In this document: one piece after another, positions 1 to 21,409 of the stretch
Layout: every line of letters starts with the position of its first letter
How positions within the stretch are numbered: position 1 is the first letter of the stretch
Virus record (IMG/VR): IMGVR_UViG_3300035204_000988
Location: 1 to 21,409 of that record
Source of the DNA: a virus
Strand: one strand, 5' to 3'
DNA: 21,409 bases
Notes under the pieces: generated by a model
Databases searched by the model: none
What the model saw: the letters and a program-made list of their open reading frames with translations, nothing else
Told to the model about the DNA's origin: nothing
Translations under genes and position numbers: made by a program

Positions 1-2
1 CT

Positions 3-638
3 CGTCTGGTTATTGATGGCAAAAAAGTTCTGTACGTGTCCTTGGAGATGTCAGAGGACCGAGTTGCCCAAAGATTTGATAGTATTTTTACAAGGATTAA
101 GCAGTGTGAATTAAAAGGACGAGTTGAGGACTTAGCAAAGCGGGTTGAGGAAATGAATTCCTATGAGGGTTTAGGGGAACTAAGAATTAAGGAGTTCCCA
201 ACCAAGCGCCTAACCGTTGCGGGTCTTAGGGCTTATTTGAACCAGTTAAAGAATTATGATGATTTTTGCCCAGATGTAGTTGTTTTAGATTATTTGGAAT
301 TGATGACAGCTGCGGATGCCTCGATGTCTGAGTATATGTCTCAGGAGCGTATTGCGCAGGAACTTAGGGGACTGGCGGTTGAGCATCGGTTATTGGTTTG
401 GACGGCAACACAAACGAACAGACAAGGTAAATTGGTGGATATTATTACAGATGCCGAATTGGCTGATTCTTATGGGAAAATTCGGGTTTGTGATTTAGCT
501 TTTTCTATTAATCAAAAAGAACAAGAGTTTGATGAAGGGAAAGCTCGTTTATATGTTATGAAATCTCGAAACGGACGGGCAAGATTTATTGTGCCTATTC
601 GAATCGATTACAATAAGTTAGTGGTGACACAACAATAA
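3..638 (+). CDS. Replicative DnaB-type helicase, C-terminal part (5' end outside window)
   Basis: The reading frame is open from the first bases of the window, so the gene starts upstream and only the last 211 residues are visible. DnaB-type helicases are hexameric RecA-fold ATPases that unwind DNA at the phage fork. The visible part has the Ser-Leu-Glu-Met-Ser stretch that follows the Walker A strand in this family, then a Walker B strand ending in VVVLDYLELM, then a TQTNRQG segment resembling the usual sensor-like Gln motif. The Walker A loop must lie before base 3. A GTG at 36 is in frame but sits inside the conserved core, so it is not a start. The stop is one base before the next ATG. 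Family assignment is firm; the exact subfamily (DnaB, T4 gp41-like or T7 gp4-like) cannot be fixed without the N-terminus. Confidence 0.85.
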   Translation, partial: RLVIDGKKVLYVSLEMSEDRVAQRFDSIFTRIKQCELKGRVEDLAKRVEEMNSYEGLGELRIKEFPTKRLTVAGLRAYLNQLKNYDDFCPDVVVLDYLELMTAADASMSEYMSQERIAQELRGLAVEHRLLVWTATQTNRQGKLVDIITDAELADSYGKIRVCDLAFSINQKEQEFDEGKARLYVMKSRNGRARFIVPIRIDYNKLVVTQQ

Positions 639-639
639 T

Positions 640-984
640 ATGACTAAAAAATACCCTAAGTATACCCACCCGATGACCGTGTATACGGGAATAAAAACTT
701 TTACAATTAAACAGCAAGCGCTGACAAAAGATAATTTATACGGCTGTGTGGAGTTCCCGAAATCTTTAATAACGATTGACCCTAACCAGTGTGTTGAGGA
801 TTATAAAGGAACTTTACTTCACGAAATTTGTCACGTGGGTTTTGAGGTGTTTGGATTGAACGATGATGACGAAATACCCACAATAGGAAATGAGTATCTT
901 ACTAGTGTTACTTCAAATATGATTCAGCAACTGGCGGGTTTAAACCCTGACCTTTTTCAATTTATTTTTACAAAACAATGCTAG
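640..984 (+). CDS. Small HExxH putative zinc metallopeptidase-like protein
   Basis: A 114-residue protein. It carries HEICH at residues 61-65 within the helix LLHEICHVGFEVFGL, the zinc-binding pattern of gluzincin-type metallopeptidases. Glu85 in GNEYLT, about 20 residues later, is a plausible third ligand, as in ImmA/IrrE-like and other short phage metallopeptidase-like proteins. No signal peptide or membrane segment is seen, so it should act in the cytoplasm. It starts one base after the helicase stop and its end overlaps the next gene by 7 bases, so it is probably co-translated with replication genes. Substrate and activity are unknown. The zinc site is visible in sequence; protease activity is only inferred. 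Confidence 0.65.
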   Translation: MTKKYPKYTHPMTVYTGIKTFTIKQQALTKDNLYGCVEFPKSLITIDPNQCVEDYKGTLLHEICHVGFEVFGLNDDDEIPTIGNEYLTSVTSNMIQQLAGLNPDLFQFIFTKQC

Positions 985-1421
985 ATTTAAAAAATATTTA
1001 CGACACTCTTGAGGACCATTACATGGATATTACTAAGAAGTATTTATCCCTTTCGGAACACAATTTACAAGAGGTGATGACACAACACCCGTCTGTTTAT
1101 GCTTTTTTTGGGGGTGTCAATGCCTATGCCAAAAAAGAAATGGATTTGGCTTCCTTGCTGTTGGAAACGCGCGAAGCGGAACTAAGGGAAGCGAGACGTG
1201 AGGAACTTAAATCTTTAGGGCAAAAGGTCACGGACCGTTCCCTAGACGGATATTTGAAGACGCTTTCCGAGTTACAGGCTTTATCTGCCGGGGTAGTGAA
1301 GAAATCCCACAAATATCATTTATCTCGAAATATTATGTCCAGTTTGGACCACCAAAAGGATATAATAGTTCAACTAAGCGCAAATAAACGCGCAGAAACT
1401 AAACTAATCGAACAACTTTAA
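978..1421 (+). CDS. Unknown helical protein, possible UvsY-like recombination mediator
   Basis: A 147-residue, strongly helical, charged protein. Residues about 55-80 are rich in Glu, Arg and Leu and could form a coiled coil. The C-terminal third reads as another amphipathic helix ending near Leu-Ser-Ala-Asn-Lys-Arg-Ala-Glu. I do not recognise a named domain with certainty. Its size and helix-rich character are close to T4 UvsY (137 residues), which loads UvsX onto gp32-covered single strands. It lies directly upstream of a gp32-type protein, and a UvsX-type recombinase is at 7534 in the same window. Function is therefore a context-based guess. The start overlaps the previous gene by 7 bases and only 3 bases separate its stop from the gp32-like gene. 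Confidence 0.45.
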   Translation: MLDLKNIYDTLEDHYMDITKKYLSLSEHNLQEVMTQHPSVYAFFGGVNAYAKKEMDLASLLLETREAELREARREELKSLGQKVTDRSLDGYLKTLSELQALSAGVVKKSHKYHLSRNIMSSLDHQKDIIVQLSANKRAETKLIEQL

Positions 1422-1424
1422 ACT

Positions 1425-2186
1425 ATGGTTAACATTAACGAATTACGAAAAAAATACGAAGAAATCAACAGTACAGGCACGGGAAACTCCACGGAGTTTT
1501 TAAGCAAGTTTTTTATGATGGAAGAGGGCACCTCGGTGGTGCGGGTACTTCCTTGGAAAGATGAAGAGCAGGAGTTTTACACGGAGACTGCCATTCACCG
1601 TTTGGATGATAAGAACTATCATTGCCCTCGCGTTAAGGGGGACAAGTGTCCTGTTTGTGATAAATACTATGACCTCTGGAAGCAGATTAATGCTATCGGT
1701 AAGGATACCCCAAGGGGCCGAGACTTGGCCGATGTCGCTCGTCAGATTAAAGCTCGCAAGCGTTACTACTTAAATGTAGTGGACCGTCGGGATGGAAAAG
1801 TTAAAATTCTCTCCGTCGGGCAAAAGCTTTTTGGGAAGATTTTGGATTGCTTCTTTGACGAAGATTTTGGAGATATCACGGACGTGTCAGAAGGTTGGGA
1901 CTTTAAGATTGTTAAAGACACCCAAGGGCAGTGGCCAAATTATGATAAGTCCGCACCAAAACCAAAACAAAGTAAAGCAGGAAGTGACCAGGAAGTATCC
2001 CAATGGATGGATGAACTGCATGACATTCACGGTCTTGTTAAAATAGCTGATTATGATGACCTAAAAAATATGATGCTTGCTTTGGGGGGAGAGGATTCTG
2101 GTCCGGAGTCAAGTTCGTCCGTTTCTAAAAACGATGATGACGATGAGGATTACATGGCTCACCTTAAAAATCTTAAGGTTGACTGA
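1425..2186 (+). CDS. gp32: Single-stranded DNA-binding protein, T4 gp32 type
   Basis: A 253-residue protein of the T4 gene 32 family, which coats single-stranded DNA during replication, recombination and repair. Seen in order: a basic N-terminal segment (residues 1-15) of the kind used for cooperative binding; the strand VVRVLPW near 38-44; a zinc motif made from His58 or His66 with Cys67, Cys75 and Cys78 (CP, then KGDKCPVCDK); the core strand KRYYLNVVDRRDGKV at about 112-126; and an acidic Asp/Glu/Ser tail near 222-243. The acidic tail is the usual docking arm for partner proteins. The length is shorter than T4 gp32 (301) but normal for distant relatives. It follows the possible mediator gene by 3 bases. 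No clear SD precedes the ATG. Confidence 0.9.
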   Translation: MVNINELRKKYEEINSTGTGNSTEFLSKFFMMEEGTSVVRVLPWKDEEQEFYTETAIHRLDDKNYHCPRVKGDKCPVCDKYYDLWKQINAIGKDTPRGRDLADVARQIKARKRYYLNVVDRRDGKVKILSVGQKLFGKILDCFFDEDFGDITDVSEGWDFKIVKDTQGQWPNYDKSAPKPKQSKAGSDQEVSQWMDELHDIHGLVKIADYDDLKNMMLALGGEDSGPESSSSVSKNDDDDEDYMAHLKNLKVD

Positions 2187-2188
2187 GC

Positions 2189-3409
2189 ATGAGTAAGGAT
2201 AAGCTAAAAATTTTAGTTTGCCCATCAAATGAGGGGGGATGTGCGTACTATCGTATCATCCTCCCTATGCAAAAGTTGGAGGAGCACTTTGGTGAAGAGG
2301 TGGAGTTTAGGTGGGACTCAAATCCACTTGCGTGGGATAAGGATGCGAAAACCACAACACCTCCTGACTATGATTATGAGAATATAAAATGGGCGGATAT
2401 TGTCTTCACTCAGAATATTCATAACTTTGGAGGTCAGTACACGGCTGAAATATTACGTAAAGCAAATGAGTTTGGGAAATTCACACACTTTGATACAGAT
2501 GATTTACTAACGGATTTGTACCCGGAGCATCGTTTATACCAGGTGTACAAGGAGCAGAAGCTTGACGAAATTACGAAGTACATTTATAATAATGTAGATT
2601 TGGTTTCTGTTACTCAACGAAAGTTTGCAGAGCGCATCCGTCCTTTTGTAAAACGGGCTCTGGTTGTTATTAAAAACGCTATTGATTTTAATTTGGATGG
2701 CTGGAACGCTCCCAAGCTTAAAGCTGCGAGAAAAAATTTGTGTAGGCTCGGTTGGGTAGGAGGAATCCACCACGACGTGGACGTTAAGCAGTTTGCCGCC
2801 TTACCTCATCTTGTAAACCAAAAAGTTGGGAGAGAGCGGGTACATTGGGGCTTTTATGGAAGACCCCAGCGCGAACGCGACGAGAATGGAGTCCCTAAAA
2901 AGGAAGATTGGCAACAAGATGTTTGGGACTACTATGAACAACAGCTTATGAGGGGCTTTAAAGGGCAGAGAAACTATACTATTTACCCTGCGCTGCCTCC
3001 CAATGACTATGGGCGCTTTTACACTAACATTGACGTAAGTTTGGCATTTTTGGACCCAAACCCTTTCAATGATTCTAAGTCGGAAATCAAAGTAATCGAA
3101 GCAGGAAGGTATGGGGTACCTCTTGTAGCAACTAATATAGGTTGCTATGATGAGGTTATTGAAAATGGTGTTACAGGGTACCTTATTGACAAAAATAACC
3201 CAAAGACAGAGTGGTCTAGAATTTTAACTAGGTGTGTTAAAGATAAAAAGCATCGTGAAGAAATGGGTAGAAATTTAAAGAAAATTGTGGACGAGTACTA
3301 TGATATTAACAAGATTGTTGGTGGGCGTCTTCATTTGTATAAACAGCTGCTAGGTATGAAGGCCGAAGCGGAGCAAGAACGAAAAGAAAATATTCAGGAA
3401 GTCGGATGA
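2189..3409 (+). CDS. GT-B glycosyltransferase, GT4-like
   Basis: A 406-residue protein that should transfer a sugar from a nucleotide donor to an unknown acceptor in the cytoplasm. The N-terminal half opens with a Rossmann-type strand followed by GGCAYYRI, a segment frequent in phage and metagenomic GT4-like enzymes. The C-terminal half has the donor-site pattern EIKVIEAGRYGVPLVAT at about 299-315, where Glu299/Glu304 and the Gly-Val-Pro turn match the GT4 C-terminal motif, followed by ENGVTGYLI. No membrane segment is present. The ATG is 2 bases after the gp32-like stop, so the glycosylation block seems transcribed from the replication block. Donor and acceptor cannot be told from sequence. 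Confidence 0.85.
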   Translation: MSKDKLKILVCPSNEGGCAYYRIILPMQKLEEHFGEEVEFRWDSNPLAWDKDAKTTTPPDYDYENIKWADIVFTQNIHNFGGQYTAEILRKANEFGKFTHFDTDDLLTDLYPEHRLYQVYKEQKLDEITKYIYNNVDLVSVTQRKFAERIRPFVKRALVVIKNAIDFNLDGWNAPKLKAARKNLCRLGWVGGIHHDVDVKQFAALPHLVNQKVGRERVHWGFYGRPQRERDENGVPKKEDWQQDVWDYYEQQLMRGFKGQRNYTIYPALPPNDYGRFYTNIDVSLAFLDPNPFNDSKSEIKVIEAGRYGVPLVATNIGCYDEVIENGVTGYLIDKNNPKTEWSRILTRCVKDKKHREEMGRNLKKIVDEYYDINKIVGGRLHLYKQLLGMKAEAEQERKENIQEVG

Positions 3410-4212
3410 GAGAAAAAACTAGTATTGTAGCTTGTATGAAGAACGAGGCTCCTTACTTAAAGGAGTGGATTGAGTTCCATAAACTTGTGGGATTTGAACA
3501 TTTTTATTTGTATGACAATCAGTGCACTGATGACACTAGGGAGGTGCTAAAACCTTATGAAGAAAGTGGTCTTGTGACGGTGAACGAACTTCCATTACCA
3601 AATTGTCAGCTTGCCGCATACTACCATGCACTTTATTCCTATAGGTATGAGTGTGATTGGATGGCATTTATTGATATTGATGAGTTTCTATTTTCCCCGA
3701 AAGGAGAGGATATTAAGGTATTCTTAACAGACTTTAAAGCTTTGCCTGCAGTAACACCCCAGTGGATGACGTTTGGAAGTAATGGGCATGAACAAAAGCC
3801 TGAAGGTTTAGTGATTGAGAACTTTACGAAAAGGGGTCCCAGTGAGAAGGATGCGTTTGAACCAAATAAACACATCAAGTCTATTGTAAATCCAAAGGTT
3901 ACTGTTTGCCCCGCTGGGACACCCCATAATTTCTTTTATATGAGCCCTAACCCCCCTGTTAATGAGCAGGGGCACCAAAATACGGGTCCCTACCGTGAGG
4001 GGGAGTGGACCTATGATAAAATCCGTATCAACCACTATTATTGTAAATCTAAAGAAGAATACCAAGAGAAAATAAATAGGGGTCGTGCTGACGCACCACA
4101 GGCGGAACAAGAATTGTCACGAACCTGGGAAGATTTTGATAAGCATGACAATAATGAAGTTGAGGACTTAACCATTTTACAATACTTGAAGCCCCTAAAG
4201 GAACAATTATGA
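3406..4212 (+). CDS. Glycosyltransferase, GT92/GT2-like (GT-A fold)
   Basis: A 268-residue GT-A type enzyme. The opening TSIVACMKNEAPYLKEWIEF and the following FEHFYLYDNQCTDD are typical of the GT92 / Glyco_tranf_2_4 group. The metal-binding DxD is the Asp-Ile-Asp at 90-92 in AFIDIDEFLF. A conserved NHYYCKS segment occurs near residue 207, where this group has a His-Tyr-x-x-Lys-Ser pattern. It overlaps the previous gene by 4 bases (ATGA) and has AGGAA in front of the ATG, pointing to translational coupling. Many relatives act on cell-surface or capsule glycans; here the acceptor is unknown. Confidence 0.85.
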   Translation: MREKTSIVACMKNEAPYLKEWIEFHKLVGFEHFYLYDNQCTDDTREVLKPYEESGLVTVNELPLPNCQLAAYYHALYSYRYECDWMAFIDIDEFLFSPKGEDIKVFLTDFKALPAVTPQWMTFGSNGHEQKPEGLVIENFTKRGPSEKDAFEPNKHIKSIVNPKVTVCPAGTPHNFFYMSPNPPVNEQGHQNTGPYREGEWTYDKIRINHYYCKSKEEYQEKINRGRADAPQAEQELSRTWEDFDKHDNNEVEDLTILQYLKPLKEQL

Positions 4213-4925
4213 AGACATTTAAGCATTCTGGAGATTTAGGAGATATTATTTTTGGGCTGCCCGCTATGAAAGCGAAGGGGGGAGGTATTTTGTACCTGGA
4301 CCCAACGGGCGGCGAGGGGCAATTTGAGGGGTTAGCAATTGGTTCATCTGGGAAAACTAAACTAACAAAGGAAACCATTCTCGCGGCTAAAGAGTTTTTA
4401 GAAGCTCAACCTTATATTGACGAGGTTAAGTTGTGGGAGGGGGAGAAAGTTAATTATAACTTAGATGAATTTAGAAAGCATATTTCATTTAATAATCTTA
4501 CGAAATCACATTTGGAAGCTTTTAGTATCCCACATGATAAGGCTGATGTAAAATGGTTAAAATTGCCCTCAATGGATACTGTCTTACCAGAAGGGAAATC
4601 TTTTGTCGTGGCTCGTAATGTCAGGTACCAAGGGAACCACGCTTTTTGGGAACAGAACGCAGAGATGTTTAAAGAAAAGGCAGTTTTTGTGGGTTCGCCC
4701 TTTGAGCATGAAGTGTGGGAACACATATTTGGAGAAGGGTTGGAATATTTAAGCACCCCTACAATTATGCACCTGGCCCAAGCTATTAATGAGTGTAAGA
4801 CCTTTGTAGGCAATCAGGGGCTTCCCCATGCTATTGCCGAAGGCTTTAAAAAGCCCATGATTTGTGAGGTGGATAAGACTTACCCCGCCGCCGTTTTTAA
4901 GCGTGAGGATGCGAAGTACGTGTAA
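4209..4925 (+). CDS. GT-B glycosyltransferase, heptosyltransferase (GT9)-like
   Basis: A 238-residue protein, short for a GT-B enzyme. The N-terminus has HSGDLGDIIFGLPAM (6-20), the glycine-rich acceptor-side loop of the ADP-heptose:LPS heptosyltransferase family. The C-terminal half has VFVGSPFEHEVW (159-170) and TFVGNQGLPHAIAEGFKKP (198-216), corresponding to the donor-site Gly-x-x-(Gly/Ser)-x-x-H-x-A-x-x-x-x-x-P motif. The usual length is 320 or more, so the domains are trimmed, especially between the halves. It overlaps its upstream neighbour by 4 bases, with AAGGAA ahead of the ATG. The sugar donor need not be heptose; many phage and metagenomic members have unknown donors. Confidence 0.75.
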   Translation: MKTFKHSGDLGDIIFGLPAMKAKGGGILYLDPTGGEGQFEGLAIGSSGKTKLTKETILAAKEFLEAQPYIDEVKLWEGEKVNYNLDEFRKHISFNNLTKSHLEAFSIPHDKADVKWLKLPSMDTVLPEGKSFVVARNVRYQGNHAFWEQNAEMFKEKAVFVGSPFEHEVWEHIFGEGLEYLSTPTIMHLAQAINECKTFVGNQGLPHAIAEGFKKPMICEVDKTYPAAVFKREDAKYV

Positions 4926-7326: not shown

Positions 7327-7332
7327 AATACT

Positions 7333-7533: not shown

Positions 7534-8505
7534 ATGGCTGGAATACTAAGCGATGTTTGTAAGCGCCTTGAGGGCGCTAATTTGTTGGAGGACGAGGCTC
7601 AGGTTCACGGGTATGTGGATTCCGGTTCGTATGCTCTTAATAAGATTATGTCCGGGAAATACAACGGGGGTTTTCCCATTGGAGCTATAACTGAAATTTA
7701 TGGGGAGTCCTCCACGGCAAAAACTGTGTTCCTAACTCATGCTTTTGTGGGAGCCCAGAAGCAAGGCTACTACACTATAATGGTGGATAATGAGCACGCT
7801 TACTCCCCCGGATTTGCCAAAACATTGGGGGTTGACCCCTCTAAACTAGTTTACCTAATGCCGGAAACAATGGAGGCCTGCTTCGAGGCTATTGAGGAGG
7901 TTATTAAGGCAATCCGAGAAAAGGACCAAGACACACCCATTGTTATTGGGTATGATTCTATAGGTGTGTCCCCTACAAAAAAAGAGATGGAGGATGATTT
8001 TGGCAAAAATAGTGAAATGTCCGGGGCAATACGTGCGAAAGTAGCTGGACAGTGTTTGCGTAGAATTAATCCTCTTTTAAGAAAACACAAAGCCGCGCTG
8101 GTTATTATCAATCAAGTCCGAAGTAAGGTGGGACTAGTTTTTGGGGACCCCAGGACTAAGGCGGGGGGTGGAAAGGCATTGCTTTATTATTGTGCGGTTT
8201 CCCTTGAGACCACTTCAGCCAAATCTGATGTTATATATGATGAGATTAAAAATCCAATTGGGATTAAAGGAACGGTAAAATGTGTTAAAAACAAGGTAAC
8301 CGTTCCCTATCAGGATTGTGAGTTTAGGCTTATATATGATAAGGGGTTGGAACGGTCTTATGGGCTAACTGTTTCTATGTACAAAAATGGGATAGTAACC
8401 TCCCCCTCAAAAGGGTGGTACTCTTTAGAGGAGGGCAGTAAAAATAGGGCGGCAGATTTAAACAAAGTTCTTGCTGGGAAAGTTCAGTCTGGGGAAATTA
8501 AATAG
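7534..8505 (+). CDS. uvsX: UvsX/RecA-type recombinase
   Basis: A 323-residue strand-exchange ATPase acting with the gp32-like protein in recombination-dependent replication and repair. Walker A is GESSTAKT at 57-64, a UvsX-like variant of RecA GPESSGKT. TIMVDNEHAY at 81-90 contains the Asp-x-Glu that primes water. Walker B is PIVIGYDSIG at 135-144. Loop 2 and the Gln switch are visible as INQVRSKVGLVFGDPRTKAGGGKAL (192-216), very close to RecA and UvsX. Length is between T4 UvsX (about 390) and minimal RecA cores; the RecA C-terminal domain seems reduced. No SD precedes the ATG; instead TTTATACT lies directly upstream. It may be preceded by the 53-residue peptide in the same transcript. Confidence 0.9.
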   Translation: MAGILSDVCKRLEGANLLEDEAQVHGYVDSGSYALNKIMSGKYNGGFPIGAITEIYGESSTAKTVFLTHAFVGAQKQGYYTIMVDNEHAYSPGFAKTLGVDPSKLVYLMPETMEACFEAIEEVIKAIREKDQDTPIVIGYDSIGVSPTKKEMEDDFGKNSEMSGAIRAKVAGQCLRRINPLLRKHKAALVIINQVRSKVGLVFGDPRTKAGGGKALLYYCAVSLETTSAKSDVIYDEIKNPIGIKGTVKCVKNKVTVPYQDCEFRLIYDKGLERSYGLTVSMYKNGIVTSPSKGWYSLEEGSKNRAADLNKVLAGKVQSGEIK

Positions 8506-9130: not shown

Positions 9131-9444
9131 TGCCAAGTCCTTACACTCCTAAAAAAAGCTATTTTTCTGAGGCTAGAGTCCAAAAGATGGCCAAGGATGT
9201 TATCCGTGATTGCAAGCACGATAGAGACCTTGCTTTACAAGCATTTGCTTATTTTAAAACTATTGTTGACGCGAACCCTATGGATGATAAATCTAAGTCT
9301 GAATTGTCCAAAGCACTGGATTTAGCTCAATCTGCTAATGATAAAGTCGTGAGAATTTTAGATTTAATGCTAAAAATGACTGCGGTTGAGATAAAAAATT
9401 CTAAAGACGTCAAACCCATGTCCTTCGAGGACCTTCAGAAATGA
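9130..9444 (+). CDS. Unknown small helical protein
   Basis: A 104-residue, helix-rich, mixed-charge protein. The N-terminus PSPYTPKKSYFSEARVQKMA leads into helices with a Leu/Ala heptad-like pattern (LSKALDLAQSANDKVVRILDLMLKM, residues about 57-82). No catalytic motif, signal or membrane segment is visible, and I do not recognise the family. It overlaps both neighbours by 1-4 bases, so it is probably translated together with the ClpA/B-type ATPase that follows; an adaptor for that ATPase is one possible role. Confidence 0.55.
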   Translation: MPSPYTPKKSYFSEARVQKMAKDVIRDCKHDRDLALQAFAYFKTIVDANPMDDKSKSELSKALDLAQSANDKVVRILDLMLKMTAVEIKNSKDVKPMSFEDLQK

Positions 9445-10682
9445 GCAAAGACACCAAAGATAATTTTATAGTTTATTCCCATGTATTGGATGTTTTCATT
9501 TCGATACGAAAACTGACGGACGAGGAGATTGAGGACCTTGTGGTTAGAGTTGTGGACACTGTAACGGCTCCGAAGTCTTCAATATCCCAATTCATTGAGC
9601 TTATTTTAGAAAAGGTAGTCATAGGATACCCTGATTTAATTTCTGATGCTGATGACGGGGTTAGAGAAGCCATTTTTGAGTGTGTTACAGAGATTTATCC
9701 AGGCTTCTCCTTGGAGTTAATCAGTAAGACGGTAAACTCTTACATGCACGGGGAGGGGGAACTTCCTGATGGAGGGAGCAGTTCTCTTCTGTCCCTAAAG
9801 CAGGTGGACAAAATATCGAAGGCTTTAAAAAGCAACGTGATTGGCCAGAATGAGGCTGTGGATGAAATTATTAAGCATATAAAACTAATAGAATCGAAAC
9901 TTGAAAAGTCCTCGAACCTATTTTTTATTGGCCCTACTGGCGTAGGTAAAACTGAAATGGCGAAAGTTCTCGCCTCGGCTTATCTCGGGAACGAGAGTCG
10001 TTTGTTAAAAATTAATTGTGGAGAGTATTCGAGTAGCCACGAGTATGCAAAATTGGTGGGCAGCCCCCCTGGATATATTGGGCATGGGGAGAAAGGTCTT
10101 TTAACCCAGAAGGCAAGTGAGTCCTCGAAATGGGTTATTCTTTTTGATGAAATTGAGAAAGCTCATTCAAAGCTATATGATTTGCTTTTAAACTTAATGG
10201 ATGAGGGGACAATCACGGATAATCAAGGCGTTGTTTTGGATTTTTCTAATTCCATTATTTTATACACAAGTAATGTTGGATTACGAGAATTTGTAGGAAA
10301 AACCTATCTTGGGTTCGGGGAACAGAAGGTATCGTATGAGGAAGCTAAAAGCAACATAGAATCTGTGTTCAAAGAGAAGTTTTCCCCAGAATTTATTAAT
10401 AGATTGGACGCTGTTATTTACTTTAATACCCTAAATAAGGATGACGCTAAGAAAATAGCGAAACTCCACTTAAAGAAGCTTCCCTTGAAAGTCTCCCCTA
10501 AACTCGTATCATATGTCGTCGATGAAGCCTTCTCAGAGGACTACGGCGCTAGAAATATTCGTAGATTTATTAAAAATAATATTTCTATTAAAATCGCCGA
10601 CAAAATTTTAAGCGGCAAAGTCTCAGATGCTTATACCCCCCTCTTCAAAAAAAATGAGTTCCTCGGATTCAAGTCTGTTTAA
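9441..10682 (+). CDS. ClpA/ClpB-type AAA+ ATPase, single module with a novel N-terminal domain
   Basis: A 413-residue AAA+ unfoldase-like protein. From about residue 120 it matches the second ATPase module of ClpA/ClpB: VIGQNEAVDEI (133-143), Walker A GPTGVGKT (164-171), the pore-loop region SPPGYIGHGEKG (208-219), Walker B VILFDEIEKAH (232-242), sensor 1 YTSN (275-278), arginine finger in FINRLD (319-323) and sensor 2 GARNIRR (369-375). Residues 1-115 are not a Clp repeat domain and I do not recognise them; a Gly/Ser-rich linker joins the parts. I see no clear IGF/L-type ClpP-binding loop, so it may work alone as a chaperone or disassembly motor. It overlaps the upstream small gene by 4 bases. 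Confidence 0.85.
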   Translation: MSKDTKDNFIVYSHVLDVFISIRKLTDEEIEDLVVRVVDTVTAPKSSISQFIELILEKVVIGYPDLISDADDGVREAIFECVTEIYPGFSLELISKTVNSYMHGEGELPDGGSSSLLSLKQVDKISKALKSNVIGQNEAVDEIIKHIKLIESKLEKSSNLFFIGPTGVGKTEMAKVLASAYLGNESRLLKINCGEYSSSHEYAKLVGSPPGYIGHGEKGLLTQKASESSKWVILFDEIEKAHSKLYDLLLNLMDEGTITDNQGVVLDFSNSIILYTSNVGLREFVGKTYLGFGEQKVSYEEAKSNIESVFKEKFSPEFINRLDAVIYFNTLNKDDAKKIAKLHLKKLPLKVSPKLVSYVVDEAFSEDYGARNIRRFIKNNISIKIADKILSGKVSDAYTPLFKKNEFLGFKSV

Positions 10683-11349: not shown

Positions 11350-12075
11350 ATGAAAGGAATTGTTTTAGCTGGGGGACTTGGAACTCGCTTAAACCCTCTG
11401 ACGTTTGCGACGAATAAACACTTACTCCCTGTTTATGACCGTCCTATGGTTTATTACCCTATACAAACTTTGGTGAATGCGGGTATCCGAGATATTATGG
11501 TTGTCACCGGGGGTCCCCACGCAGGGGACTTTATCCGCGTTCTAAAAAATGGGGAGGAGTTGGGTTTAGAGAAAATAAGTTATGCTTACCAGGAAGGGGA
11601 AGGAGGAATTGCACAAGCGCTCTCTATGGCGGAGCCTTTTGTGGGGTCCGATAGTTGCACTGTCATACTTGGGGATAACATTATTGCTGATGATATTAGT
11701 GGGGCGGTTAGTAATTTTGAGTCTGTGGGAGGATGCCACATCTTTACTAAGGCGGTACATGACCCGGAAAGATTCGGAGTAATTAAGTTTGATGAGGAGG
11801 GAGGAGGTATTAAGGACATCATTGAGAAGCCCCCTATACCACCTTCTAATGAAGCCGTAATTGGTTTGTACATGTACGATAATAGCGTGTTTAACCGCAT
11901 TAAATCCCTTAAGCCTTCTAATCGGGGGGAGCTAGAGGTTACTGATTTGAATAAATCTTACCTAAGAGAAGGGAAACTAACGGCCCACAGGGTTCACGGA
12001 ACGTGGGTAGATTGTGGAACGTTTGATTCTTTGGCGAAAGCCACAACTAAATTTTTTGAAGATAAACATGAGTAA
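11350..12075 (+). CDS. rmlA: Glucose-1-phosphate thymidylyltransferase (short form)
   Basis: A 241-residue nucleotidyltransferase expected to join dTTP and glucose-1-phosphate to give dTDP-glucose, the first step of dTDP-deoxysugar synthesis. The signature MKGIVLAGGLGTRLNPLT (1-18), KHLLPVYDRPMVYYPI (23-38), ILGDNI (about 106-111), EKPPIPPS and the GTWVDCGTFDSL segment near the C-terminus all match RmlA, and the KxLLPVYDxP motif argues against a CDP-glucose enzyme. It lacks the roughly 50-residue C-terminal extension of typical 290-residue bacterial RmlA that carries the allosteric dTDP-rhamnose site, so it may escape feedback control. It is the first gene after the terminator at 11297. Confidence 0.92.
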   Translation: MKGIVLAGGLGTRLNPLTFATNKHLLPVYDRPMVYYPIQTLVNAGIRDIMVVTGGPHAGDFIRVLKNGEELGLEKISYAYQEGEGGIAQALSMAEPFVGSDSCTVILGDNIIADDISGAVSNFESVGGCHIFTKAVHDPERFGVIKFDEEGGGIKDIIEKPPIPPSNEAVIGLYMYDNSVFNRIKSLKPSNRGELEVTDLNKSYLREGKLTAHRVHGTWVDCGTFDSLAKATTKFFEDKHE

Positions 12076-13051
12076 TAAAAAAATTGTCGTAACAGGAGGC
12101 TGGGGCTTTATAGGCTCCCGTTTTATCCTAAAAGTTTTGGAAGACACCGATTATAGTGTTCGGGTTATTGATAAAGGCACGTACGCCGCCGATAAGAGCC
12201 GGGTGTTCAATAACTTAAAGAGGGAGGAGGACAAAAATAGAATTGAGATTTTGGAGGTAGATATTTGTGACTGCAGAAAGGAGTACCTAGCGGGTTGCGA
12301 CTATGTGGTTAATTTCGCGGCGGAGAGCCATGTGGACAATTCCATTAGTGATGGCAAGCCTTTCATTAGAAGTAATGTAGAGGGTGTTTTTACCCTTCTG
12401 GAATGTGCCAGGAAGAGCCCTGACCTGAAAAAGTTCATCCATATTTCCACGGATGAAGTTTACGGGGATATGCAGGACCTAATAGGGGAACCAAAAGCCA
12501 CAGAATCTTTCCCCTTACGCCCGAGTTCCTACTACTCAGCCTCCAAGGCATCAGCGGACCTTTTAGTCCAGTCAGTGGCCAGGACGTACGGACTCCCTTA
12601 TATTATTACACGCAGTTGCAATAATTTTGGGCCAAATCAGGACCCTGAAAAGTTTATCCCTAAAATCTTTAAGTCGATTCAGGAAGGTAAGGAGGTTCCC
12701 GTTTACGGTGACGGTAAACAATCTCGGGAATGGATGCACGTAGATGATAATGTGGGTATTATTCTAAACTTAATGCTGTCAGGTGCCACCAACGAGATTT
12801 TTAACATTGGAAGTGGGCACCATTTAACAAACCTTGAGGTAGTTGGTTGCATTGGGGAGCTTCTAAACTCAGACGTGAATTACAGTTACGTGCCAGACAG
12901 GTTGGGCCACGATAGGGTTTACAGCTTAGACACTTCTAAGCTTGATAAATTTTTTGGGGATGTTTTTCATGGTAGTCTAGTATATCGTAAGTTGAAATAT
13001 TTTTTAAAAGATGAAGTTGCAAGGGTTAAAAGTTTTTCTAACGGGGGCTAG
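12068..13051 (+). CDS. rmlB: dTDP-glucose 4,6-dehydratase
   Basis: A 327-residue extended short-chain dehydrogenase that should convert dTDP-glucose to dTDP-4-keto-6-deoxyglucose with bound NAD. NAD-binding VTGGWGFIGSRF is at 8-19, FAAESHVDNSI at 83-93, the catalytic Thr-Asp-Glu in STDEVYGD at 127-134, and Tyr156 and Lys160 in SYYSASKASAD. RSCNNFGPNQ and REWMHVDDN are further RmlB hallmarks. The ATG at 12068 is chosen because it directly precedes the first Rossmann strand and overlaps rmlA by only 8 bases; an earlier start at 12014 would add 18 residues unlike the family. The 3' end overlaps rmlD by 41 bases. Confidence 0.93.
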   Translation: MSNKKIVVTGGWGFIGSRFILKVLEDTDYSVRVIDKGTYAADKSRVFNNLKREEDKNRIEILEVDICDCRKEYLAGCDYVVNFAAESHVDNSISDGKPFIRSNVEGVFTLLECARKSPDLKKFIHISTDEVYGDMQDLIGEPKATESFPLRPSSYYSASKASADLLVQSVARTYGLPYIITRSCNNFGPNQDPEKFIPKIFKSIQEGKEVPVYGDGKQSREWMHVDDNVGIILNLMLSGATNEIFNIGSGHHLTNLEVVGCIGELLNSDVNYSYVPDRLGHDRVYSLDTSKLDKFFGDVFHGSLVYRKLKYFLKDEVARVKSFSNGG

Positions 13052-13706
13052 AGGGCGTCTAGGGGTAGAGTTATCCAAGAGGTTGTTGGAAAAAGGGGCT
13101 GTTACAATAGCCCCTAACAGTCTAGAGTGGGACATCACAAAAGGTGTCAAGCCTAGCCCCCTAATAGTTGACCCTCTTGAGGTTGATTTAGTTATTCATG
13201 CGGCGGCGTACACAGATGTACCTGGTGCAGAGGAAAATCGCTTTGACTGTGTTAAAACAAACATATACGGGACGGAGACCGTCGCAAATTTCGCAAAGTC
13301 TTGTCGGGCAAAGGCTGTCTACATTTCATCAGATTATGTAACTGCCCCACCCCTAAGCTTTTATGCTTTTACGAAGTTAGCCGGGGAAGCTTTCTTTGAT
13401 AAACAAAAAGACATGATTATACGAACCTCCTTTAAATCACGTGGAATGTGGGGCGAAAAGGCCCTTAAGAAGGTTTTTCACCCCGTTTACACAAATGGGG
13501 ATTGGGTTGATATTATAGCGGAACTAATTGTTAAAGCTATTGAAGAAAATCGTACAGGGGTTGTTAATTTGGGTACGAAAGTAAAAACTCTGAAGGATTT
13601 AGCCTTGGAGGAGTACCCCCTAGTGCAAGAGACCCCCGTTACAGAGGCAGATACGCTTTTAGGGTATTATTATCCACGTGATACAACAATGGACTTGACT
13701 ATATAA
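13011..13706 (+). CDS. rmlD: dTDP-4-dehydrorhamnose reductase-like, shortened
   Basis: A 231-residue short-chain dehydrogenase of the RmlD family, which reduces the 4-keto group to finish a dTDP-6-deoxyhexose such as dTDP-L-rhamnose. Visible are FLTGARGRLGVEL (9-21), WDIT (40-43), IHAAAYTDVPGAE (62-74), YISSDYV (104-110) and the Tyr118/Lys122 pair in SFYAFTKLAGE. It is about 60 residues shorter than usual: the loop after SSDYV, normally ending in a VFDG-type motif and a longer run to Tyr-x-x-x-Lys, is cut to a few residues, and the C-terminal substrate region is reduced. Product stereochemistry may therefore differ from rhamnose. The 41-base overlap with rmlB suggests tight coupling. Confidence 0.85.
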   Translation: MKLQGLKVFLTGARGRLGVELSKRLLEKGAVTIAPNSLEWDITKGVKPSPLIVDPLEVDLVIHAAAYTDVPGAEENRFDCVKTNIYGTETVANFAKSCRAKAVYISSDYVTAPPLSFYAFTKLAGEAFFDKQKDMIIRTSFKSRGMWGEKALKKVFHPVYTNGDWVDIIAELIVKAIEENRTGVVNLGTKVKTLKDLALEEYPLVQETPVTEADTLLGYYYPRDTTMDLTI

Positions 13707-14693: not shown

Positions 14694-14695
14694 AT

Positions 14696-14771
14696 AGGAG
14701 GGTAGCTCAGGGGTTAGAGTTTTGGTCTTATATGCCAATGGTCACGGGTTCAAATCCCGTTCCTCCCACCA
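14696..14771 (+). tRNA. tRNA with anticodon UAU (isoleucine, AUA codons)
   Basis: A 76-base cloverleaf with encoded CCA. Acceptor stem 14696-14702 pairs with 14761-14767 (one A-C mismatch at the first pair, one G-T). Positions 8-9 are TA. D-stem GCTC/GAGT encloses the loop AGGGGTTA. Anticodon stem TTGGT/GCCAA encloses CTTATAT, so position 33 is T and the anticodon is TAT. The variable loop is TGGTC. T-stem ACGGG/CCCGT encloses TTCAAAT. The discriminator is A and CCA is 14769-14771. UAU reads AUA, a codon used throughout these genes. In most bacteria AUA is read by a CAU tRNA carrying lysidine, so a UAU tRNA is unusual. The first-pair mismatch may weaken function. Confidence 0.9.
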
Positions 14772-14776
14772 AAGTT

Positions 14777-15799: not shown

Positions 15800-15801
15800 G
15801 T

Positions 15802-17091: not shown

Positions 17092-17612
17092 AAATTAAGG
17101 ATGTTATTCTAGTTCGGCCCACAGTGTATGCGGATACGAGGGGGTTTTTTATGGAAACGTACCACCGAACTAAGTTCAAGGAGTTAGGTATTGATGGGGT
17201 GTTTTCGCAAGACAACTTTGTATTTTCTAAGAAAGGCGTACTCCGAGGACTTCACTACCAACACACGGCCCCACAGGGAAAGCTTTTACGGTGTGTTAAA
17301 GGGGAAATCCTGGATGTTGCTGTTGATATTCGTCCTGACTCGCCTACTTTCGGGGAACATGTCTCCGTAGTTTTGTCGGAAAGTAACATGAATCAGTTGT
17401 GGATACCAAAAGGTTTTGCCCACGGCTATGCTGTGTTATCGAAGGAAGCCTATGTGTTGTACAAATGTGACCAAGTATGGGTTCCAGAGTATGATTCCGG
17501 GATTAGGTGGGATGACCCTGACCTAAATATTGATTGGAGGATAGAAAACCCCTTGATTTCTGAGAAAGACTCCAAGTTACCCCTTTTGAGAGAAAAAGAT
17601 GAAGGGCATTAG
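17073..17612 (+). CDS. rmlC: dTDP-4-keto-6-deoxyglucose epimerase
   Basis: A 179-residue cupin of the RmlC family, which inverts C3 and C5 of dTDP-4-keto-6-deoxyglucose. Conserved parts: DTRGFFMETY (21-30), VFSQDNFVFSKKGVLRGLHY (43-62) with catalytic His61, PQGKLLRCVKGEILDVAVD (67-85) with Lys70, WIPKGFAHGYAVLS (110-123), Tyr130, and GIRWDDPDLNIDW (143-155). In most RmlC the stretch before Pro-Glu reads Tyr-Tyr-x-Pro-Glu; here it is VWVPE (135-139), so a usual active-site Tyr is Trp. Some relatives epimerise only one carbon, and this change might fit that, but it is not diagnostic. It overlaps the 3-dehydrase by 19 bases and the next gene by 14. Confidence 0.9.
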   Translation: MEAEKLKIKDVILVRPTVYADTRGFFMETYHRTKFKELGIDGVFSQDNFVFSKKGVLRGLHYQHTAPQGKLLRCVKGEILDVAVDIRPDSPTFGEHVSVVLSESNMNQLWIPKGFAHGYAVLSKEAYVLYKCDQVWVPEYDSGIRWDDPDLNIDWRIENPLISEKDSKLPLLREKDEGH

Positions 17613-18216
17613 TATAATTATTCCCTATTTGTCCTCAAGCCTTTCCATAGAGCTTTGCAAGGAGTACGCGCTAAAAAATGCAGACAACCCGAGTGATGTG
17701 GAGTTTGTGGAGATTGTGGATTCTACGGGCGTCTATGCAGCTTACAACGAGGGTGCTGAGAAAGCTACACGCGACCTATTAGTGTTTATCGGGGACGACA
17801 TGTTATTAGGACCCAGTTGGGACACACATTTCTACGACCATGTCCAGCCCCGTACCATAGGAACATGCTATGTTATAGAACCTGGAGTGCCTTCAAAGGG
17901 AGTTAATTTCCGTAATGTGGAACAAAATTTTGGGTATAACCCAGAAGGGTTGCACAGAGAATCTTTGGATGGTTTTATGGAGAAGTATACCCCAGCTCTA
18001 GAGTCCCTTCCGGGTTTTGAGGGTCATGGGTGGTATCAGCCCCTCGCTTGCTTAAAGGAGAGTTGGGTTCCGTATTTAACTGACCCAGAGTTTCCTCACC
18101 CACAGGACATTGAACTGTTTAGTCGGTTAAATGAGAGTAAGTATTACTTTGTGCGCGTACCTGCTTTTACTTATCATTTTCAGTGTCTGACTATAGAGCC
18201 AGACATAAGGTATTGA
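17599..18216 (+). CDS. Glycosyltransferase, GT2-like
   Basis: A 205-residue GT-A type protein, smaller than the others. The start MKGISIIIPYLSSSL and the internal TGVYAAYNEGAEKATRDLLVFIGDDMLLG (43-71) match family 2, with Gly-Asp-Asp (65-67) as the DxD site. A conserved His/Trp region near GHGWYQPLACL (142-152) and a late FTYHF (190-194) fit the catalytic half. GAGAG lies before the ATG and the gene overlaps rmlC by 14 bases, so the two are coupled. It is the last clear gene of the sugar block; about 450 bases of nearly gene-free sequence follow. Confidence 0.75.
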   Translation: MKGISIIIPYLSSSLSIELCKEYALKNADNPSDVEFVEIVDSTGVYAAYNEGAEKATRDLLVFIGDDMLLGPSWDTHFYDHVQPRTIGTCYVIEPGVPSKGVNFRNVEQNFGYNPEGLHRESLDGFMEKYTPALESLPGFEGHGWYQPLACLKESWVPYLTDPEFPHPQDIELFSRLNESKYYFVRVPAFTYHFQCLTIEPDIRY

Positions 18217-18223
18217 GACCCCC

Positions 18224-18243
18224 CACCGTGTATAAGTCAAAGA
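18224..18243 (+). repeat. Direct repeat, copy 1
   Basis: CACCGTGTATAAGTCAAAGA, identical over 20 bases to copy 2, which starts exactly 120 bases later. Confidence 0.85.
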
Positions 18244-18343
18244 CTACGCACTACTCCTTCTTAGGGGTACACACTCTTGAAGCAGAGGGGGTGAGTTGTA
18301 GTGTTTTTCACCCAGTACCAAGCCGTAATACCCATTCCATTCA

Positions 18344-18363
18344 CACCGTGTATAAGTCAAAGA
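18344..18363 (+). repeat. Direct repeat, copy 2
   Basis: Identical over 20 bases to copy 1. It ends one base before ATG 18365 of the weak candidate ORF. Confidence 0.85.
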
Positions 18364-18364
18364 T

Positions 18365-18568
18365 ATGGTACTCGTAGTGATGAAACGCAGCCAACTAGGG
18401 TTTTACCTAAAGAAGGGGTTTACCCTCGTAAGGAGGTATCAACAGGGGGACGAACCTAATGACCTAAAGGATTGTTTTGAGGTGTTGGAACGGTGTATAA
18501 GTCAAAGAGTAGCGGAGAAGGCAAGAACAAGACATGGCAAGGGGGTTGAGATAATAGAAGTCCCTTAA
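18365..18568 (+). CDS. Doubtful 67-residue ORF
   Basis: An ORF from ATG 18365 to TAA 18566-18568 with plausible composition: hydrophobic start (MVLVVMKRSQLGFYLKKGF), an acidic helix (NDLKDCFEVLERCISQRVAE) and a basic end. There is no SD and no recognised family. Copy 2 of the repeat directly precedes it and copy 3 lies inside it. An internal ATG at 18380 is an alternative start. It could be a real small protein or a chance frame in a regulatory region. Confidence 0.3.
   Translation: MVLVVMKRSQLGFYLKKGFTLVRRYQQGDEPNDLKDCFEVLERCISQRVAEKARTRHGKGVEIIEVP
18491..18508 (+). repeat. Direct repeat, copy 3
   Basis: CGGTGTATAAGTCAAAGA; 17 of 18 bases match copies 1 and 2, and the 16-base core GTGTATAAGTCAAAGA is identical. 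It lies 145 bases after copy 2, in a different reading frame relative to the candidate ORFs. Confidence 0.8.
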
Positions 18569-18617
18569 TGAGAGAGGACACCCCGTAAGCCACATGGTTC
18601 CAGTTTAGCCTTATTAG

Positions 18618-18623
18618 TATAAT
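18618..18623 (+). promoter_or_regulatory. Possible -10 box upstream of the gene at 18672
   Basis: TATAAT followed by AGAC, the same context as the box at 21396 (TATAATAGAC). No -35 match is seen at the expected distance. It would drive the gene starting at 18672 with a leader of about 40 bases. Confidence 0.4.
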
Positions 18624-18671
18624 AGACCGATTTCGTAGGAAGTTTGATTTTCTTCCCTAGATATTATTGTT

Positions 18672-19076
18672 ATGATACCTCTTCGTTTTAAGGTTTCGTT
18701 AAAAAGTTCTGAAATTTTGCCTTATAAAAATTTGCTTCCTCTGGTTCATTTATCTATAAATGAAAAAGAAAGAGAGAAAGTTCGTGCTTTATTAAAGTAT
18801 AAAAGTAATGCTTTGTTTGTAGAAGATATGAGGAAGCATAAGCATTTACGCGAAATGGCTTCCGCTTTAATGTTTTTAATTTCTTTGGAAGAGGACAAGG
18901 CTCAACAGCGAGAATTTTTTAGTAGAATAATTTTCTTTGATAAGGATTTAGAAAAACGATTAAGAGAGATGTTTGGTATTCCCTGTGAAGGTTTACACCC
19001 TTTAATGATTCAGTTAATGTATAGTGCTTCTTGTGATACGGATGAATGGGACGATACAATAATGCCTTCTGAATAA
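18672..19076 (+). CDS. Unknown helical protein
   Basis: A 134-residue protein, mostly helical and charged (KEREKVRALLKYKSNALFVE, LREMASALMFLISLEEDKAQ), with an acidic C-terminal tail (CDTDEWDDTIMPSE). No membrane segment, catalytic motif or known family is recognised. It stands alone between the repeat-bearing gap and the long hairpin. By eye its codons are AT-richer, with fewer GGG and CCC runs, than the sugar block, and this also holds for the two genes that follow. The ATG has no SD. Confidence 0.6.
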   Translation: MIPLRFKVSLKSSEILPYKNLLPLVHLSINEKEREKVRALLKYKSNALFVEDMRKHKHLREMASALMFLISLEEDKAQQREFFSRIIFFDKDLEKRLREMFGIPCEGLHPLMIQLMYSASCDTDEWDDTIMPSE

Positions 19077-19106
19077 CAAGAAATTAAAAAAGGAGCCGCT
19101 GGCGAG

Positions 19107-19192
19107 CCGTAAGTGCTGTTCCCATAAGGACTTAGGAAAATCCATTATTTTTTTTTGATTTTCCTAAGTCCTTACACCTTAAAGACTTACGG
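19107..19192 (+). repeat. Long nested inverted repeat (26 bp of stem)
   Basis: The inner stem is 18 bp without a mismatch: TAAGGACTTAGGAAAATC (19125-19142) pairs with GATTTTCCTAAGTCCTTA (19157-19174) across a 14-base loop that contains nine consecutive T. The outer stem is 8 bp: CCGTAAGT (19107-19114) with ACTTACGG (19185-19192). The two stems are separated by 10 bases on each side. The T-run is in the loop, not after the stem, so it is not an ordinary intrinsic terminator. It may be a transcript-end or processing structure, a small RNA, or a DNA-level element. Confidence 0.8.
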
Positions 19193-19214
19193 TCGTTAAA
19201 AGCAACCGAGGGGC

Positions 19215-19243
19215 TTGACTTGCCCTGCGATATGTGCTATACT
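19215..19243 (+). promoter_or_regulatory. Sigma70-type promoter for the MoxR/HExxH pair
   Basis: TTGACT (19215-19220), a 17-base spacer and TATACT (19238-19243) preceded by TGC, an extended -10. The start should be near 19250, giving a leader of about 60 bases. This is the best promoter in the window and looks like a host housekeeping promoter, as expected for an early phage gene. Confidence 0.85.
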
Positions 19244-19296
19244 TTCGGACGGCGTGGTTACTCTACACCGCCTTTAGCCCATTTAACCGTAAATCA

Positions 19297-19302
19297 AAGG
19301 AG
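19297..19302 (+). promoter_or_regulatory. Ribosome binding site supporting a TTG start
   Basis: AAGGAG lies 8 bases before TTG 19311. The first in-frame ATG is residue 26, only three residues before Walker A, so the TTG start is well supported. Confidence 0.75.
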
Positions 19303-19310
19303 ATAAGATT

Positions 19311-20141
19311 TTGGCTTCAAATTTTATAATAGACCCTATTAAAAAGAAAATCCTGACTAAGTTGGTCGAGTCGGGTAAAAACACAATGCTCACAGGGGCA
19401 ACAGGATGTGGTAAAACTACTTTGTGCTTTGAGGTAGCAAAGGAGTTGAATCTAAATCCAGTTGTGATTAACTGTGGTTCTACTCAAGATGCCCGAAGTT
19501 CTCTTTTGGGTTACTTTACTTTGGATAATGGCAATACTGTTTTTCAGGAAGCCGACTTCCTAAAAGCAATTCAAGAAGAAAACACTTTGATTATTCTTGA
19601 TGAATTGTCCCGTGCTTCTGACGATGCTTACAACATTATCTTTCCTCTTTTGGATTTTCGTAAGGAAGTTCGTGTAGATGAAAAAGATGATGGGCGTGTG
19701 GTTAAGTTAGCAGACAATGTAAAATTTATTGCTACTGCTAACATTGGTGTAGAATATAGTTCTGCCCGAAGTATTGACCGTGCTTTACAAGACCGTTTTA
19801 TCTCTTTCAACATTCCTTACCTAAAAGGAAGTAAGGTTAAAACTTATGTAAAGAAGCAATTTGATTCTGAGACTGCGGATATCGCAAGTCCTCTTTTCAA
19901 GATTTACGATTATACTCACAAGATGTTTGCCGAGGGTAAACTTTCTGACCGTCTTTCTACTCGTATGGTTTTAGAAGTAATGCCTTTAGTAAAGGACTTT
20001 ACTATTGGTGAGATTCTGGATAATGTTATCCTTTCATTGTTCCAACAAGATAGTTCTGCTATTTTGAATGATGCTAACATCATTAGAGAATATAGTGATT
20101 CTCTTGGAGTTTACAATAAAGAACAACAGGCAAACGGCTAA
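19311..20141 (+). CDS. MoxR-type AAA+ ATPase
   Basis: A 276-residue AAA+ ATPase starting with TTG. Walker A is GATGCGKT (29-36), Walker B is LIILDELSRA (93-102), sensor 1 is FIATAN (139-144), and RALQDRF (157-163) supplies the arginine finger. This arrangement fits MoxR/RavA/CbbQ-like ATPases, which act as chaperones or activators, usually with a von Willebrand A-type partner encoded next door. The next gene, with an HExxH site, fits the metallopeptidase-like N-terminal part seen in some such partners. A strong promoter and SD precede it, and the second gene begins 3 bases after its stop. The protein target is unknown. Confidence 0.85.
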   Translation: MASNFIIDPIKKKILTKLVESGKNTMLTGATGCGKTTLCFEVAKELNLNPVVINCGSTQDARSSLLGYFTLDNGNTVFQEADFLKAIQEENTLIILDELSRASDDAYNIIFPLLDFRKEVRVDEKDDGRVVKLADNVKFIATANIGVEYSSARSIDRALQDRFISFNIPYLKGSKVKTYVKKQFDSETADIASPLFKIYDYTHKMFAEGKLSDRLSTRMVLEVMPLVKDFTIGEILDNVILSLFQQDSSAILNDANIIREYSDSLGVYNKEQQANG

Positions 20142-20144
20142 GTG

Positions 20145-21377
20145 ATGGCTGAGAATCCTTTTGAGAGCGTTGATAACATTGACGCTGAATTTATGGAACG
20201 GTGGCTTGGTGGGGTAGAGATTGAATCTTTATCCCCCAAGATTCTTTTTGATATCAAACAGTTGATTCAGCATTATGCCAGTATCATTGTTCCAGAGGAA
20301 AAAGTAAATATTGCTTTTCCTGATGGAGAAAAAGAAAGCCCCCGTGCTTCCGTTGAAAACTTGGAAGTAAAAATCCCTACTGCTATGTTAGCAAACGGGA
20401 GAGTAGATGAAACTATTGGTGCGATGATTCACGAATTACACCATATTAAATTATCCGATAAAGAAACAAATATCTGGCTTTCATGCTTCAATTTTGTTTG
20501 TAAAGTATTGGATACTTTGTTTGTGGAAGATGGGAACGGAGGATATAATTCTCTTTATGAGTTGATTCTCGGAGATTCAGATTTGAGATTTGAGGATATC
20601 ATGTCTCCTGAACCTACAAACCCAAATGCCCTTTTCTTACGGAAGGCGTGTGATGATGTTGCTTTCTTTTTGAACGCTATTGAGGATGTTAGAATTGACG
20701 CTAACACACCCCCTAACTTGAAAAAGTATATCGACAAATTAGATTCTAACGCATTTACTAAGTTCAAACCGAAATACGAGGACGGAGAGTTTGACGGGGA
20801 AGAATTATTCCCTGTAATTTATCGGCTTCTATTCCACCATAAAGGATATATTGAAGATGATTTTATCAAAGGTAAATCTCCAGACTTAAATGATATTGTA
20901 AACTCTAGTCCAGAAGAAAATGCTTCTTACTTCTTTGAATCTTTTAAGGAAACTCTAAGAGAGCATATTGAAAATCTTTATCAAAACGGAGAACTTCAAA
21001 TGCCTCAAGTTGGTTTAGTTTCTGGAGAAGGTGGCAGAGATATTATGGATATGTATTTATCCGAGAAAGGTAAGGATGCGTTAAAAGAGGAAATGAATAA
21101 CTCACTTGACGGAAAAGGAAATTCTCTTTCTGATGCCGTGGACTTTGAGGACAGAGAAGTTGATTCCACAAACAAAGAAAAAATCTCGTCAGGACTAAGA
21201 GATTTTAGAAAAAACATTGAACCTTGTAAGGATAAACCAATTATTATTTCTCAAGAATTTGAGTTAGAAATTGATTCTTATAAGAACATTAAAATTCATA
21301 AAACCACAGAAAATCTTAGCAGGAACGGTTCAAGTTATGATGTAGATTATTCGTGTGTTTTCGTAGATTATGCTTGA
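20145..21377 (+). CDS. HExxH protein, partner of the MoxR-type ATPase
   Basis: A 410-residue protein from ATG 20145 (a GTG at 20142 is an alternative). MIHELHHIKLSDKE carries HELHH at 96-100, a zinc-type HExxH motif, and an acidic stretch with NAIEDVRID follows near 190-200. This matches the metallopeptidase-like N-terminal region (DUF2201 type) of proteins encoded beside MoxR ATPases. Those proteins normally end in a VWA-like domain; here I cannot see a clear DxSxS metal site, and the gene stops at 21377 after about 110 residues of charged, low-identity sequence. The VWA part may be highly diverged or lost. No membrane segment. Activity is inferred, not shown. Confidence 0.7.
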   Translation: MAENPFESVDNIDAEFMERWLGGVEIESLSPKILFDIKQLIQHYASIIVPEEKVNIAFPDGEKESPRASVENLEVKIPTAMLANGRVDETIGAMIHELHHIKLSDKETNIWLSCFNFVCKVLDTLFVEDGNGGYNSLYELILGDSDLRFEDIMSPEPTNPNALFLRKACDDVAFFLNAIEDVRIDANTPPNLKKYIDKLDSNAFTKFKPKYEDGEFDGEELFPVIYRLLFHHKGYIEDDFIKGKSPDLNDIVNSSPEENASYFFESFKETLREHIENLYQNGELQMPQVGLVSGEGGRDIMDMYLSEKGKDALKEEMNNSLDGKGNSLSDAVDFEDREVDSTNKEKISSGLRDFRKNIEPCKDKPIIISQEFELEIDSYKNIKIHKTTENLSRNGSSYDVDYSCVFVDYA

Positions 21378-21401
21378 TTTATTTTCAATTTCTGGTATAA
21401 T
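21374..21401 (+). promoter_or_regulatory. Sigma70-type promoter at the window end
   Basis: TTGATT (21374-21379), a 16-base spacer and TATAAT (21396-21401) preceded by TGG, an extended -10. The -35 overlaps the stop codon of the HExxH gene. The gene it drives lies beyond the window. Confidence 0.7.
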
Positions 21402-21409
21402 AGACATTC

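Follow-up and report, generated by a model that had tools for sequence, protein, structure and literature searches.

Complete absence of GATC from a virus fragment and a sharply bounded site-free module in its phage relatives

Introduction

Staphylococcus phage K, a virulent phage of ~140 kb, is a close precedent for the site loss described here: GATC has been eliminated from its genome and Sau3A is evaded (PMC6532042). Like the present family it combines a large genome with total loss of GATC; it differs in being unrelated and in having a known host and enzyme, and a regional second tier is not known to be described for it. More broadly, Rusinov 2018, working on non-temperate phages, called a site 'eliminated' when observed/expected falls below 0.1, found GATC to be reduced in all 46 phages with hosts that encode enzymes for it, and reported avoidance to be most frequent for sites of Type II and among virulent phages (PMC6286503). 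GANTC is depleted in half of the pelagiphages, and the depletion clusters on the phage tree (PMC9516812). The parallel between these marine phages and the present, presumably marine family lies in a methylation-motif depletion that clusters by tree; the differences are the GANTC motif itself, its description as a depletion and a host methylase without a partner enzyme.

Regional site avoidance, too, has a precedent. T5-like phages have no EcoRI sites in their pre-early, first-entering DNA (PMC13250531), in which they are also thought to encode protection (PMC8594841). In the T5 record AY543070 GAATTC is missing from the first 10.2 kb, where 3.3 copies would be expected, and 4-mers are only mildly depleted in the first-entry DNA. 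As in the blocks reported below, sites are missing from one continuous region (~10 kb in T5) and present elsewhere. In T5, however, 4-mers are mildly low and the sites are few, whereas here a stretch of 10-16 kb has lost almost every copy of at least four tetramers; moreover, the T5 region is the first-entering DNA, while the likeness of the present blocks rests on site content, from which we infer the order of entry.

Results

The window, that is, the whole stretch of DNA analysed here, is a complete virus record (G000) of 21,409 bp and represents a fragment of a tailed phage. Its genes listed below from the helicase to the nucleotide-sugar set, and the three of the multi-site-free block, all lie on the plus strand. 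The record end cuts the first of these, the C-terminal portion of a replicative helicase of the DnaB type (36..638; PHROG 19, E 2.6e-41), whose frame is open from base 3. Further along are a single-strand DNA binding protein (1425..2186; PHROG 1192, E 2.5e-29), a UvsX/RecA-like recombinase (7534..8505; PHROG 97, E 3.5e-65), which served as the query for the family and is 55-80% identical in the relatives, a Clp-type ATPase (9441..10682; PHROG 4871 'ATP-dependent protease', E 6.6e-84) and a set of nucleotide-sugar genes (11350..13706). The latter are RfbA-, RfbB- and RfbD-like as judged by eye from their translations, have orthologues in the relatives and lie just before the window-specific genes. 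Between these Rfb-like genes and the multi-site-free block described below sits a variable region (13713-18377), whose genes mostly have no relatives in the family and are in some cases sugar/glycosyltransferase-like. It includes a tRNA-Ile with the anticodon TAT (14696-14771); an ORF called at 14732 begins within this tRNA, and its true start is probably further downstream.

By searching with the UvsX protein we gathered 32 relatives, to which the UvsX alignment added 42 further loci. Terminase, portal and contractile tail sheath are among the relatives' genes, and this predicted gene content marks the family as myovirus-like. The nearest cultured phage is distant, the best UvsX/RecA match being ~34% identical. 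Judging from the IMG numbers, the samples are presumably marine.

GATC does not occur in the window (1..21409). An order-2 Markov model predicts 43.9 copies, an order-1 model 55 and base composition 77; z is -8.1. It is the sole one of the 256 4-mers without any occurrence. When synonymous codons of the coding part were permuted with proteins and codon usage held constant, 56.9 GATC were expected and the lowest of 300 shuffles still contained 41. The sequence-only reading had pointed to this absence over 21.4 kb, to the abundance of sister words and to the use of GAC for Asp before C, and all three hold upon counting: GATT, GATA, GATG and GATATC occur 157, 116, 144 and 6 times, and the Asp codon ahead of C is GAC in 51 of 51 cases, as against 279 GAT and 112 GAC in other contexts. 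In the same vein, the Ile codon ATC is never placed after a codon with a final G, nor Ser TCN after a codon ending in GA. GGCC is also low across the whole window, with 22 seen against 46-65 expected. With elimination taken as observed/expected below 0.1 at more than 15 expected, GATC is eliminated both here (0 against 44-57) and in relatives (0 of up to 378).

The absence is spread across the family. Among the contigs read whole, 22 have no GATC, amounting to 880 kb in total; individual contigs have 0 of 378 expected in 101.7 kb, 0 of 371 in 101.8 kb, and also 0/265, 0/177 and 0/137. Other relatives carry the word at 99/115 (G001), 111/105 (G010), 48/105 (G003) and 354/414 (G024) seen/expected. 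GATC state is bimodal, and it is clustered on the UvsX/RecA tree, with 9 changes against 19.6 when shuffled and none of 500 shuffles as low; in this tree the long branch of L140 is false, its RecA having been read out of frame. The GATC state has nevertheless switched several times in the family. G003, for example, carries GATC while its kin at ~75% nucleotide identity have none, and is still low in GGCC (5/66). The suggestion of long-lasting selection on the coding sequence within a single host group is too simple, since G003, G001 and G010 have GATC and their close kin lack it. Where relatives have GATC, the site is retained in GATC-free kin in 0/5 to 0/83 cases per pair, as compared to 8-58% for other 4-mers, and at least half of the changes at those orthologous sites leave both amino acids intact. 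The contig G018 (L019) has five GATC, all at 834-13068 within its first 13.1 kb, the rest of its 51 kb being GATC-free; these five are perhaps recent gains or products of recombination.

Comparison of gene content between GATC-bearing and GATC-free phages, made on fragmentary contigs, yielded no candidate gene. A phage-encoded methylase behind the GATC-bearing relatives was considered and rejected: a family search of the incomplete contigs found no Dam, N6, N4 or C5 methyltransferase (MethyltransfD12, N6_N4_Mtase, C5), and a motif search found no methyltransferase motif IV in any plausible protein. Scans of genome contigs for a host and a cognate enzyme gave no relative and no carrier genome. 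The 130.6-kb contig G061 (L142) bears the IMG taxon number 2716884398, which is not of the metagenome style, and its source organism could reveal the host.

Other words have been purged genome-wide, independently of GATC: ACGT, CCGG, GTAC or CASTG are gone in close relatives that carry GATC. In G061, of a sister clade, GATC is normal and ACGT (0/227) and CCGG (0/137) are absent; G036 has CCGG at 0/119, G024 has ACGT at 0/195 and CASTG at 0/98, and G031 has GTAC at 0/127 by the order-1 Markov model. The great majority of the eliminated 4- and 6-mers are words of the restriction type, mainly palindromic. The purged 6-mers are enriched for palindromes in G024, G025, G027, G036 and G061, five of the largest contigs (Fisher 1e-10 to 1e-20), and known restriction sites of the Type IIS, IIG and degenerate kinds are also enriched among them in four of the five, the exception being G036. 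CTGAAG, a Type IIG site (AcuI/Eco57I), is almost gone from G024 (L025; 1/77) and G025 (L026; 1/74). Relatives lacking this Type IIG word set the present family apart from the survey of Rusinov 2018, where avoidance of Type IIG sites was not reported (PMC6286503).

Superimposed on this is a local pattern. From 18,369 to 21,409 of the window, AGCT, GTAC, ACGT, TGCA, GGCC and CCGG are absent along with GATC (0 seen against 36.9 expected for the six); the last such site before the block is a GTAC at 18368, and AGCT stands at 0/10 in the block against 62/54 in the remaining window. The gap, which had been regarded as specific to GATC, is so for ~1-18,368 and not beyond, given the six further palindromes absent from 18,369 on. 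The block is cut by the window end. Within it are a 134-aa protein with no function assigned, whose gene has none of the four core words (AGCT, GTAC, ACGT, TGCA) and which has weak orthologues in G027, G033 and G036 (18672..19076), a MoxR/CobS-like AAA+ ATPase that serves as the marker gene of the block (19311..20141; PHROG 249, E 9e-30; its G021 orthologue is a Pfam AAA_5 protein) and a 411-aa protein with a HELHH motif (20142..21377), which has no PHROG match and whose orthologues adjoin the ATPase in relatives.

The clue to this second tier came from three GATC-bearing contigs with one long GATC-free block each: G021 (L070), with GATC at 0/55 over 14.8 kb, G015 (L016), with 0/31 over 10.2 kb, and G041 (L116/L180), with 0 of ~27 in a block that also lacks other palindromes. 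In all three the GATC-free block coincides with the AAA+ ATPase module. We scanned all contigs for sharp blocks without AGCT, GTAC, ACGT and TGCA and recovered them in G033 (46,323-58,486; 2 seen of 155 expected), G017 (38,599-50,948; 5/153), G016 (22,055-35,207; 6/138), G041 (2,026-12,688 of its piece; 6/125), G021 (22,294-38,185; 14/156) and G030 (16,011-31,440; 13/177), as well as in the window (18,368 to its end; 1/29). In the six relatives the blocks measure 10-16 kb, and the four words pooled are seen 39 times against 818 expected, with normal counts outside. Word by word, the pooled seen/expected values inside and outside the blocks are 3/193 and 746/709 for GTAC, 4/187 and 535/606 for ACGT, 12/231 and 897/836 for AGCT, and 20/207 and 610/688 for TGCA. 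With codon shuffling of the pooled blocks as the null, every one of the 13 lowest among the 136 canonical 4-mers is palindromic. GATC is retained inside the block of G016 (36/53), which shows the two tiers to be separate.

Where the four-word pattern is lacking, the module is short of other words: AATT (0/53) and ACGT in G027, TTAA (0/62) in G005, ACGT in G036, and AGCT and AATT in G058. In a fixed-segment test at the module, counts were low in 43 of 235 tests on palindromes and in 12 of 1920 on other words; at least one palindrome is locally purged in 13 of the 16 contigs that hold the module, with almost no such purge in control segments elsewhere, and no significant local purge was detected by this test in G007, G008 and G025. 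In seven phages, then, the second tier has sharp limits and falls on one orthologous module, where further phages have lost other words. The non-palindromic CCAG/CTGG is also locally low in the blocks of G033, G017, G041, G058 and G015 (for example 3/45, 6/48 and 3/43), and in the three blocks examined for it the depletion holds whatever the flanking bases; no enzyme is known to fit it.

The gene set is shared by all blocks: the AAA+ ATPase, the HELHH protein that accompanies it, and a series of ORFs, most of them small. Ten module proteins of G021 compared with Pfam matched no known anti-restriction family. End repeats were sought on the five largest contigs, all of them fragments, and none were found. 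The contig of G027 ends inside its own low-TTAA stretch, which is only suggestive of a genome end.

Discussion

The GATC gap is, with high confidence, a case of restriction-site avoidance by a tailed phage. This interpretation, already offered from the sequence of the window, is strongly supported by the absence or near absence of GATC in most close relatives, over as much as 101.8 kb; the purging of other restriction-type words in GATC-bearing relatives and the mostly synonymous changes at orthologous sites lend it further support. The several words purged, their switching and the lack of matches to a methyltransferase or a MutH-type nuclease in the searched contigs make avoidance the best reading, and the multi-word pattern fits host enzymes of several specificities rather than Dam-directed functions. 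Some hosts would cut at GATC, and every genomic GATC would have been selected away, mostly via synonymous changes; the selecting agent, we infer, is a Type II (MboI/Sau3AI-like) or DpnI-like enzyme.

Loss of GATC in escape from Dam-directed functions, such as MutH mismatch repair, SeqA or hemimethylation, would account for a GATC-only gap over 1-18,368. It has a model in phiX174, which like the present family has no GATC and, differently, has a tiny genome, its lack of GATC being attributed to mismatch repair (PMC5014478). Dam-directed functions, however, do not recognise GGCC, ACGT, CCGG, GTAC or CASTG, all of which the family has purged together with many words of 6 bp, some of them replacing GATC, and further words are also missing from the window's last 3 kb; we consider this escape very improbable. 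A shade less probable again is a phage-made GATC nuclease that degrades host DNA while the phage keeps its own genome site-free. It would explain an absolute, genome-wide absence, but no MutH/Sau3AI-type domain was found in 29 GATC-free records (incomplete contigs, searched for known nuclease families), and for this reason we rejected the candidate; independent switching of words would, moreover, demand many nucleases. A compositional accident or mutational bias has nothing more than moderate AT richness in its favor and can be given practically no weight, because the codon-shuffle and Markov nulls rule out such bias and non-palindromic words are normal.

Taken as a whole, a two-tier account is probably the best explanation of these patterns. 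Its first tier is genome-wide, comprising GATC here, usually GGCC too in the kin, and ACGT and CCGG in the sister clade. Its second tier is the module of 10-16 kb, starting at ~18.37 kb in the window, which is also without AGCT, GTAC, ACGT and TGCA. That this module enters early or first is, by analogy, about evenly poised between true and false; its run of small ORFs would, again by analogy, suit a set of early genes. Module DNA would be the first to enter or to lie exposed, at a time when most restriction enzymes have yet to be blocked by an early function of the phage. Such DNA, exposed before protection, would have to be clean, and the later genome could tolerate AGCT, GTAC, ACGT and TGCA sites; enzymes cutting at GATC and GGCC would escape the block, so that their sites would be avoided everywhere. 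The full partition of the genome by restriction exposure, with a clean module entering naked, the remainder under early anti-restriction and GATC/GGCC-type enzymes escaping it, we advance tentatively, as falling just short of an even chance.

The main rival for the second tier is that the module is a mobile cassette that keeps passing among phages with different, more restrictive hosts and carrying their site avoidance with it. Module exchange does seem to have happened, in that the MoxR protein of the window shares 81% identity with its G021 counterpart compared to 67% for UvsX/RecA, which points to exchange with a distant lineage, and MoxR identity tracks RecA identity only loosely (Spearman 0.47). 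Part of the second tier may accordingly have been inherited via recombination. Yet the boundaries are the same in seven phages although identity among their module proteins is often no more than 30-70%, and the purge persists at deep divergence of the module; G033, whose module is nearest to those of G058, G027 and G036, which lack the four-word pattern, shows that pattern fully; and other words are purged at the same module position in other phages. We hence regard cassette exchange as rather unlikely to be the explanation of this tier.

The loss of a single restriction site from a phage is already known, and the genome-wide loss of GATC belongs to a known phenomenon, seen for example in the large phage K (PMC6532042). 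For a regional multi-site purge of such strength we found no description in the open literature, and it is this sharply bounded, multi-site-free module, whose position many related phages share, that is worth following. Returning to the two-tier account, site-free blocks could serve as markers, readable from sequence, of first-entering DNA and of the relevant host enzymes, and the module points to a probable undiscovered gene for broad anti-restriction in this uncultured phage family. If the genome is indeed partitioned by restriction exposure, then the site content along it would record both the order of its entry into the cell and the reach of a broad anti-restriction protein.
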